Shown here in pieces: positions 50,578-64,000 of a stretch of DNA of 64,000 nucleotides. The DNA comes from Pseudomonas pergaminensis (GTDB lineage: Bacteria; Pseudomonadota; Gammaproteobacteria; Pseudomonadales; Pseudomonadaceae), in assembly GCF_024112395.2 (NCBI RefSeq), contig NZ_CP078013.2, positions 5,543,501 to 5,607,500 of the forward strand, given 5' to 3'. Position numbers and translations under genes: made by a program. The notes under the pieces are model-generated. The model saw only the letters and a list, made by a program, of their open reading frames with translations, ran no database searches and was not told the origin of the DNA. The stretch's first letter is position 1. Each line of letters starts with the position of its first letter.

Positions 50578-50684
50578 AGGGCCATCAACGATGATTCGCT
50601 TTAATTTGCAGGACGTTTCCTAGAGAATCTCCGGCCTATTGTGCCTTAGGGTTCGAGTCATTAGCCTCCGTACTTCGCTGACAT

Positions 50685-50890
50685 CAGAGAACGGGTTTAG
50701 CGACCCGACCCCGGACACAGCCTCCAACGTCAAGCGTTTCATGCTTGTCGTTGTCGTGTTATGCCGGCTGTGCGTGGGAGACCTTTGGGTCTGCCGGGTC
50801 CTGGGGCCGGTTCGCTAATCTGCGCACAGCTGCACCCTTTCATGTTTAGCGACATGAGTGGGTGGCTCCCTAAACTCCCAGGTATGGATC
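50685..50890 (+). ncRNA. Candidate structured RNA leader/element
   Basis: This gene-free stretch folds into a dense series of hairpins: CGGGT-TTAGCG-ACCCG (50692-50707); CACAGCC/GGCTGTG (50716-50722 with 50766-50772) enclosing an 11-pair stem at 50725-50753; AGACC-tttg-GGTCT (50779-50792); and TCATGT-TTAGCG-ACATGA (50840-50857). The first and last have different stems but the same loop, and CGCTAA at 50813-50818 is its exact complement. It ends just before the ATG of a frameshifted DUF3077-like frame, so it may be its leader RNA. No known family is assigned. Confidence 0.5.
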
Positions 50891-51158
50891 ATGACTAAAA
50901 TCGTCCCCGATCCACCGCTCTCCTCCATCACCACCCTCGGCGTCGTCACCTTTCGGGGACTACGGCGAAAACGAAAAACCCCTGTTCCGCGTCAACGCCG
51001 GCATGCCCATTGAGGAAGCGTTAGAGCACGCCTCCACCCTGCTTTTCTACTCCAAGAAACTCGCGATGGAAGCCGCCCTAGATATGCACGCCGGACCGTT
51101 AAGCGCACACCGTTCAGATGTGGGGGCCTGCCTTCGACGGCGGTGGGTAAGGCAATAG
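50891..51158 (+). pseudogene. DUF3077-like gene with a one-base frameshift
   Basis: Reading from ATG 50891 gives MTKIVPDPPLSSITTLGVVTF, then the frame is lost; skipping one base of the GGGG run at 50955-50958 restores DYGENEKPLFRVNAGMP, IEEALEHASTLLFYSKKLAMEAAL and a stop at 51156-51158, about 88 residues. PLFRVNAGMPIEEALEHAS resembles the DUF3077 family of small pseudomonad proteins; the C-terminus after residue 70 does not. It could be a decayed gene or a sequencing error in the G run. Confidence 0.55.
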
Positions 51159-51178
51159 ATTCTTAACTGAATGACCGC

Positions 51179-51337
51179 ATTCGCGAGCAAGCCCGCTCCC
51201 ACAGTTGAACTGGGTAAGCCGCAAAATCCAGGCCTTGCACAAATAAGTGTGGGAGCTGGCTTGCCTGCGAAGGCGGTGTGTCAGTCAGCACATTCTTTGC
51301 TGATGGACCGCTATCGCCGGCAAGCCAGCTCCCACAG
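51179..51337. repeat. REP half-element and REP pair
   Basis: A single CATTCGCGAGCAAGCCCGCT arm near 51179-51206 is followed by a full pair at 51249-51337 (GTGTGGGAGCTGGCTTGCC and the complement ending CCAGCTCCCACAG). With the RNA element and pseudogene this accounts for the 796-base gap 50578-51373; nothing was recognised in 50578-50684. Confidence 0.8.
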
Positions 51338-51373
51338 TTGATTGGGTTTCACATTGAGATTGGCGGGACGGGT

Positions 51374-63174: not shown

Positions 63175-63294
63175 ATCTTGACGATGACCTACTCTCACAT
63201 GGGGAAACCCCACACTACCATCGGCGATGCATCGTTTCACTACTGAGTTCGGGATGGGATCAGGTGGTTCCAATGCTCTATGGTCGTCAAGAAA
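63175..63294 (-). rRNA. rrf: 5S ribosomal RNA
   Basis: The minus strand reads the pseudomonad 5S sequence: TTGACGACCATAGAGC near the 5' end, ACCTGATCCCATCCCGAACT, and GTGAGAGTAGGTCATCGTCA at the 3' end. The ends are set by family resemblance and may be off by a few bases. Confidence 0.93.
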
Positions 63295-63448
63295 TTCGGG
63301 TACTGAGTCGTGGCCAGCTGGCCTCGCTTCAGCAAATTGGGTATGTGATAGCTTTCGGTGTTTTGTGAGCGTCGAACTTTCGGTTCATTTCGTCTTCACA
63401 CACCGCAATCTGATGCTCGTTAGAGTAGTCAAATTGCTTGGGTGTTAT

Positions 63449-64000
<552 letters not shown>

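Follow-up and report, generated by a model that had tools for sequence, protein, structure and literature searches.

A predicted C4 antisense RNA locus ahead of a frameshifted DUF3077 gene in Pseudomonas pergaminensis, and its counterparts in other Pseudomonas genomes

Identity and layout of the locus

Which kind of RNA carries one six-base loop on two hairpins with unrelated stems, and the complement of that loop between them, directly in front of a small gene? This arrangement had been picked out from the letters alone in a 64,000-nt stretch of Pseudomonas pergaminensis DNA (NZ_CP078013.2, positions 5,543,501 to 5,607,500; hereafter the window, whose numbering is used throughout), and the original prediction took it to be a cis-acting leader or a free small RNA. 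The two hairpins sharing the loop TTAGCG on different stems are present at 50692-50707 and 50840-50857, and a 221-nt region is predicted to fold at -89.6 kcal/mol, compared with a shuffle mean of -75.1 kcal/mol (z -3.14; none of 200 dinucleotide shuffles was as low). Searching the whole window against Rfam, a check which the prediction had itself proposed, identified a match to C4 antisense RNA (RF01695) at 50757-50839, scoring 61.6 bits against a gathering cut-off of 45 (E 1.7e-9) and covering the model over its full length (1-87). The proposal of a structured RNA was thus borne out, and the element proved to be of a kind already described, namely C4 with its a1 and a2 hairpins. Family membership appears to follow from the covariance score, the P1, P2 and P3 stems, and two guides with a target at a ribosome binding site; on these sequence grounds the element is almost certainly a chromosomal C4 antisense RNA locus. 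Its features are as follows.

50639..50667 (+): presumed promoter, TTGTGC (50639-50644) and TAGCCT (50662-50667) separated by 17 nt; a weak match
50661..50711 (+): c4-a1b1-like upstream target region (RF03163); covariance match below cut-off
50692..50707 (+): a1 hairpin, CGGGT-TTAGCG-ACCCG, stem paired in 9 of 9 loci; putative upstream target of the single-strand guide
50710..50714 (+): b1, putative upstream target of the P3-loop guide; 5 nt located by ordered search, weak and doubtful
50726..50752 (+): spacer hairpin, in which four pairs have double-sided changes; no U-run
50757..50839 (+): C4 antisense RNA (RF01695), with a non-standard pair in outer P1
50779..50792 (+): P2 hairpin of C4
50794..50810 (+): P3 hairpin of C4, its loop holding the first guide, CCTGGG (50800-50805)
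50811..50818 (+): single-strand guide of C4, TTCGCTAA, containing CGCTAA (50813-50818)
50840..50857 (+): a2 hairpin, TCATGT-TTAGCG-ACATGA; putative downstream target of the single-strand guide
50877..50882 (+): b2, CCCAGG, covering the Shine-Dalgarno AGG; putative downstream target of the P3-loop guide
50891..51158 (+): frameshifted DUF3077 gene with start codon at 50891; the PF11275 match lies in another frame, at 50943-51155

Several elements of the original prediction find their place in this layout. Its small hairpin at 50779-50792 is P2 of C4, and its loop complement CGCTAA lies where it was reported, within the single-strand guide, which links P3 to the 3' arm of P1. The loops of a1 (TTAGCGA, 50697-50703) and a2 (TTAGCG(A)) are each a 7-nt complement of this guide, such that the two mutually exclusive loop pairings proposed earlier correspond to a true pairing system of one guide with either target loop. 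A second guide had been overlooked: the P3 loop CCTGGG (50800-50805) has a 6-nt complement in b2, within the Shine-Dalgarno region (50877-50882) and 8 nt 5' of the start codon at 50891. The locus therefore possesses the two guide complements characteristic of C4, of 7 and 6 nt, the latter at the ribosome binding site. Where the immI region of phages P1 and P7 has icd and ant, it carries a frameshifted DUF3077 gene.

Upstream of C4, the match to c4-a1b1 reached 31.1 bits (E 5.6e-6), below the gathering cut-off of 46.7, and a related locus (L124) scored 42.9 bits with the same model. By position and complementarity the region appears to fit c4-a1b1, yet it is not filed as such, and no covariance match to IsrK (RF01394) was detected within the window. 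The b1 match is partly against the P3 stem instead of the P3 loop, and the spacer hairpin occupies the place where other copies possess an intrinsic terminator. At the presumed promoter a sigma-70 consensus scan found no site; similar letters recur there among related loci, and a loose promoter-like motif was identified in 77 of 109 C4 upstream regions, compared with 14.6 in single-base shuffles.

Further observations concern the surroundings of these features. A 45-codon ORF (50761-50901, + strand) begins at the AUG of the C4 5' end, crosses C4 and ends over the DUF3077 start, resembling orf45 of the Salmonella phage Gifsy-1. Such an ORF was rejected as a general feature of C4 loci: the lengths scatter, and in 15 of 102 loci the stop is no more than 12 nt away from the following start. 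Directly 3' of the broken DUF3077 gene, palindromic repeats that we take to be REP-like extend over 51170-51340 and are matched several times by the flanks of three related loci (L126, L127 and L128). A 5S rRNA gene and the end of a 23S rRNA gene lie at 63176-64000 on the reverse strand.

Structure conservation was examined over nine loci, the window copy and eight relatives (L124 to L131). Two of these (L125 and L128) lie at the same genomic place, with a match spanning the window's LysR-type and OmpA-family genes, and the remainder have in common only the C4-DUF3077 unit or one flank. Across both hairpins and the counted P1, P2 and P3 pairs of C4, 97.1% of cells were paired, compared with 28.4-41.0% when the alignment was slid by 1-3 columns; P1 (8 inner pairs), P2 (4) and P3 (4) were paired in 100, 100 and 97.2% of cells over the nine sequences, and the outermost pair of the a2 hairpin was unpaired in six of nine loci. 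The proposal that the loops stay fixed while the stems drift agrees with these data, the a1 loop being the same in 9/9 and the a2 loop differing by one base in L124 alone. Covariation proper was confined to 2 of 27 pairs changing on both sides, so that the expected pairing is kept with few compensating changes. Of the nested stem proposed at 50716-50772, the inner hairpin showed four double-sided changes, while the outer helix was paired in 79.4% of cells with none changed on both sides, and excludes the C4 fold because it occupies the 5' arm of P1. As a functional unit the nested stem is only half supported.

Several lines of evidence suggest that the window copy is probably decaying, and it looks like a bacterial version, somewhat decayed, of C4, the antisense RNA by which phages P1 and P7 silence a gene. 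The DUF3077-like frame noted originally is a real domain match (PF11275, 57.7 bits, cut-off 21), but it lies in a frame other than that of the start codon at 50891, for which reason the gene is called frameshifted, a defect missed in the original prediction. The ORF that opens at this start codon encodes 40 aa and has lost its C-terminus, compared with 93-96 aa in 8/8 relatives. The presumed 5' end of C4 reads AUGC instead of the AUGG found in 8/8 relatives, apparently a further sign of decay, outer P1 contains a non-standard pair (two v marks), and the RF01695 score falls under those of 9 of the other 10 copies in the same genome. No terminator was found in the window leader. Given the low score, altered C4 5' end, weak b1, lack of a detected terminator and frameshifted gene, the window copy may be inactive. 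There is in our estimation an even chance that it represents a dead remnant, in which C4 ceased to function once the DUF3077 gene was disrupted and the remaining structure and complementarity have simply outlasted it, a reading to which the missing consensus promoter also lends weight and which is compatible with the explanation that we favour for intact copies. Against it, both guides still match their downstream targets, both TTAGCG hairpins are intact, and this C4 RNA might still have effects at other loci.

Guides, targets and downstream genes across Pseudomonas

C4 matches were identified in 73 of 79 sampled Pseudomonas genomes, at least 46 of the 79 holding 10 or more and at least 29 holding 20 or more, and in 0/14 control genomes. 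The P. pergaminensis genome carries 11 copies, and another genome, G049, carries 55 matches, 52 of them above cut-off. Phylum-wide, in a sample including Pseudomonas, a match was present in at least 42 of 299 genomes, from at least 28 of 153 genera. Tandem C4 copies, about 0.7 and 1 kb apart, were observed in G251 (contig 237, 13851-15365) and G049 (1293410-1294479).

Guides and targets were compared over 109 loci, comprising all 11 found in the P. pergaminensis genome, the best 30 of the 55 from G049 and 68 from other genomes, one locus at a contig end (L034) having been dropped from an initial 110. The 68 are among the best-scoring and the 30 are the best of their genome, which biases the set towards intact copies. 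Identical guides were collapsed, and the upstream tests drew on 84 of the 109 loci, those where a1 could be placed independently of the guide. The P3-loop guide paired with its own Shine-Dalgarno region at -13.0 kcal/mol, versus -6.8 kcal/mol with those of other loci (z -27.6, 88 distinct guides), and 0 of 20000 permutations were as low as the cognate pairing. Corresponding z values were -9.0 for the single-strand guide with a2 (37 distinct guides), -17.7 for the P3 loop with upstream b1 (67) and -11.4 for the single-strand guide with a1 (31), in tests that treat the loci as unrelated, kinship between them being present. In 77 of 94 loci a P3-loop complement of at least 6 nt lay over positions -13 to -7 relative to the start, compared with 8.6% of non-cognate pairs; for the single-strand guide, a hairpin-first test in which many hairpins were misplaced found at least 5 nt in 81 of 109 loci, compared with 10% of non-cognate pairs.

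Specificity differs among copies. All 30 P3-loop guides from G049 are distinct, and by summed two-site energy the own target was the best one for 20 of 30 guides in G049 and 9 of 11 in P. pergaminensis; the copies are therefore largely, not fully, orthogonal. Private specificity is weak for the window copy, since its own target is best only by a hair (-21.3, versus -21.1 and -20.8 for L004 and L011 of the same genome). Within the set of nine related loci the single-strand guide is identical and the P3 loop falls into five groups, with own P3-loop/Shine-Dalgarno pairing averaging -11.3 kcal/mol versus -6.5 kcal/mol with the regions of the others. Exact P3-loop matches measured 6, 6, 5, 4, 4, 11, 5, 6 and 4 nt (window, then L124 to L131); in the five of these with just 4-5 nt (L125, L126, L127, L129 and L131), four rely on G-U pairs, and the P3 loop of L125 pairs slightly better with the leader of another relative.

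Downstream ORFs with a Shine-Dalgarno sequence were taken at 104 of the 109 loci (none for L007, L008, L011, L019 and L115), and 98 of these were scanned for protein families, six (L002, L024, L026, L050, L096 and L098) being omitted as near-duplicates, truncated or in the wrong frame. The expectation that copies precede DUF3077 genes held for 19/98, with 54/98 belonging instead to DUF6124 and 5/98 to Bro-N. Phage anti-repressor families match five downstream ORFs, presumably the five Bro-N ORFs. In G049, 40 of 55 C4 copies have a DUF6124 or DUF3077 gene within 700 nt on the same strand, and among the places listed C4 stands in front of 35 of 41 for DUF6124 and 5 of 5 for DUF3077, of which six were counted in all. 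In the P. pergaminensis genome the C4-gene arrangement takes in 7 of 11 C4 copies, 7 of 11 DUF6124 places and 2 of 4 DUF3077 places. At three loci (L018, L030 and L039) a 52-54-aa ORF beginning MHALNPS lies between C4 and the DUF3077 match, an order like that of P1, in which icd precedes ant.

The two main downstream families are likely kin, as both models match the same two ORFs of the P. pergaminensis genome (C1:4281638-4281832 and C1:4220138-4220329); the direct profile match is weak, with an E of 0.001 yet a probability of 21.5%. Both were modelled with moderate confidence as helical hairpins (mean pLDDT 68.0 and 69.8), with which Foldseek returned nothing at E 0.001 or better. Sequence comparison with solved structures gave no match better than E 0.03, and NCBIfam models gave just two weak hits on the downstream proteins, one member each. 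DUF6124 looks to be a mainly chromosomal family, since a search of 50,697 phage records with one DUF6124 protein found a relative encoded in just one. In the open-access literature we found no mention of DUF6124, no paper placing C4 in front of DUF3077 or DUF6124 genes and, by title among publications on 'c4 antisense' and sRNAs, none on a Pseudomonas C4; the parts of that literature seen mention DUF3077 rarely and without C4.

These distributions bear on whether chromosomal C4 copies might serve superinfection immunity, acting in trans on incoming phages with a C4 circuit, the downstream gene being secondary. Such a role has been suggested for Acinetobacter (PMC5320573), and a stretch similar to the window locus occurs in 32 phage records, 31 bearing the name of a Pseudomonas phage; both of the two records examined carry C4 with its upstream and downstream targets. 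The preference of most guides for their own target, and the proximity of DUF6124 or DUF3077 genes to most G049 copies, argue instead for local control, and we consider the immunity explanation unlikely.

The upstream target and its relation to IsrK

A role for the upstream target was sought among the 102 loci whose a1 match reached at least 6 nt. A hairpin followed by a U-run was present between a1 and C4 in 26 of these, compared with 1.9 expected from shuffles, and in 1 of 109 control stretches 3' of C4; by the same rule a terminator was absent from the other 76. In many loci b1 overlaps, with its last bases, one arm of a hairpin whose formation competes with that of the terminator. Predicted terminator formation stood at 0.39 in the free leader; blocking b1 took it to 0.81, and blocking the loop, as a control, to 0.46. 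Over the 26 loci, which include related ones and hence are not independent, blocking b1 raised it by more than 0.1 in 19, compared with 9 for the control block. It was lowered by the b1 block in four, all with a b1 match of 4-5 nt. On this modelling, the upstream target is somewhat more likely than not a transcription attenuator under the control of C4, which on binding b1 may halt transcription before reaching the C4 sequence itself.

The leader also links C4 to IsrK. In 20 loci chosen by hand, many for a terminator already seen, the c4-a1b1 model matched 18 regions upstream of C4 at E 0.01 (10 above cut-off) and the isrK model 18 (9 above), with L039 passing the IsrK model at 60.0 bits (cut-off 50). 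In Gifsy-1 the order is c4-a1b1, isrK, C4 (69.0 bits) and anrP, with guide matches of 7, 7, 7 and 6 nt. For twelve mutation letters published for the IsrK locus (PMC4825925), one start position fits 12/12, the other 20 tried fitting at most 6. With that numbering, G28:C162 and G31:C159 fall within the pairing of the a1 loop with the single-strand guide of C4, and orf45 begins at the AUG of the C4 5' end.

The published genetics agree in part with this correspondence. Double mutants restoring G28:C162 and G31:C159 regained the wild-type conformer on native gels (PMC4825925), while their translation, at 224 and 327 units versus 4 in the wild type, was not returned to its low level; single mutants gave 484 and 926 units on the orf45 side and 93 and 218 on the isrK side (PMC4825925, Table 1D). 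With IsrK supplied in trans, anrP fusions rose 8-fold (transcription) and 139-fold (translation), and IsrK was presented as an activator that remodels the mRNA (PMC4825925). Co-expression of STnc1160, which lies at the C4 position, led to stronger IsrK growth arrest (PMC4825925), a result that counts against a plain decoy model. The same report likens STnc1160 to P4 CI, and the terms 'C4 antisense' and 'C4 RNA' do not occur in it. A table footnote on Burkholderia cenocepacia describes C4 and isrK as one transcriptional unit (PMC4603805), and in the literature seen isrK stands alongside 'C4 antisense' in a table of Xylella RNAs. Open-access searches found neither 'C4 antisense' in publications on STnc1160 nor a paper joining Pseudomonas C4 copies, DUF6124 or DUF3077 genes and IsrK.

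The original suggestion of a switch-like leader would have CGCTAA act solely in cis, its two exclusive pairings switching the mRNA on a signal with no free C4. The minimum-energy fold of the leader does pair the first TTAGCG loop with CGCTAA, resembling the inactive 'structure A' of IsrK (PMC4825925). This reading is nevertheless very improbable, given that C4 homologues in Acinetobacter show higher read coverage in the C4 part and a GGW start in all but two (PMC5320573), and that STnc1160 is reported as a stable RNA (PMC4825925).

Six-base loops and their complements are common in GC-rich DNA. An origin of the hairpins by chance is nonetheless effectively ruled out by the Rfam match, the fold z of -3.14 and the cognate pairing tests.

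Proposed mechanism and significance

Very probably, then, the intact loci are chromosomal C4 loci that block translation of the downstream gene through a Shine-Dalgarno target. A single promoter would give a transcript comprising the upstream target (a1, b1), the C4 RNA and the downstream target (a2, b2), the last lying over the ribosome binding site of the small DUF3077 gene. The single-strand guide (CGCTAA in the window) would pair with the loop of either target hairpin and the P3-loop guide with the sequence behind that loop, which downstream is the Shine-Dalgarno sequence. In P1 and P7, C4 is released by RNase P as an RNA of about 77 nt. Released likewise in Pseudomonas, C4 would block translation of the gene, and in cis the upstream target would compete for the same guides. 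In copies bearing a terminator, C4 on b1 is predicted to shut transcription off, and a short terminated leader of the IsrK type would act as a decoy that frees the gene. Family membership, both downstream pairings, their co-change across copies and the terminators in part of the copies are shown by the sequences; expression, processing, repression, attenuation and decoy activity in Pseudomonas are steps that we infer.

Comparison with known systems places the locus as a variant of a familiar one. Like C4 of P1 and P7 (immI, c4-icd-ant), it combines a three-stem RNA, two guides and targets upstream and downstream within one predicted transcript, with the downstream target at the ribosome binding site. 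Unlike the phage system, the window locus is chromosomal, precedes DUF3077 in place of icd and ant, is one of 11 copies in its genome and is partly decayed. With c4-a1b1 (RF03163) and IsrK (RF01394) it shares the promoter-proximal leader upstream of C4 that is also seen in Gifsy-1, although the window copy falls below the c4-a1b1 cut-off, has no IsrK match and lacks the U-run. The Group 1 sRNAs of Acinetobacter baumannii, 21 C4-like copies that are expressed and apparently processed, are similar in their many chromosomal copies and variable guides; in the account seen they have no downstream gene or upstream target of their own assigned (PMC5320573), whereas most Pseudomonas copies examined have both. 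P4 CI RNA with seqA and seqC is, as described, likewise an antisense RNA between two complementary targets that involves premature termination (PMC4825925), and differs in that the downstream target of C4 covers the Shine-Dalgarno sequence. Both c4 antisense RNA and c4-a1b1 were listed by Weinberg 2010 (PMC2864571). The C4 family and its occurrence in many copies per genome, in Acinetobacter, are thus already known, and the window copy belongs to a known RNA family; the many mostly private locks that C4 would form on small-protein genes of the host, some of them with an attenuator leader, are a variant of this known system.

Taken together, these findings suggest a wider picture whose odds we place as evenly balanced. 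Pseudomonas chromosomes would carry, scattered along them, domesticated RNA locks of three parts that are orthogonal for the most part, one genome having 55 matches. Each lock would comprise an IsrK-type attenuator leader also serving as decoy, C4 and, covering the start of a silent small-protein gene (DUF6124, DUF3077 or Bro-N), a target that matches the guides. P1 c4 and Salmonella IsrK-AnrP would then be two views of one system, with the upstream target as a transcription attenuator under C4 control. If true, a phage immunity RNA would have multiplied into many mostly private gene locks within one genus, and the upstream target of C4 would gain a testable function. Two unnamed protein families hardly mentioned in the literature, DUF6124 and DUF3077, would gain a regulator, and the published IsrK genetics would become readable as C4 genetics. 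The natural antisense pairs with altered specificity described here would also provide material on how RNA specificity diverges.
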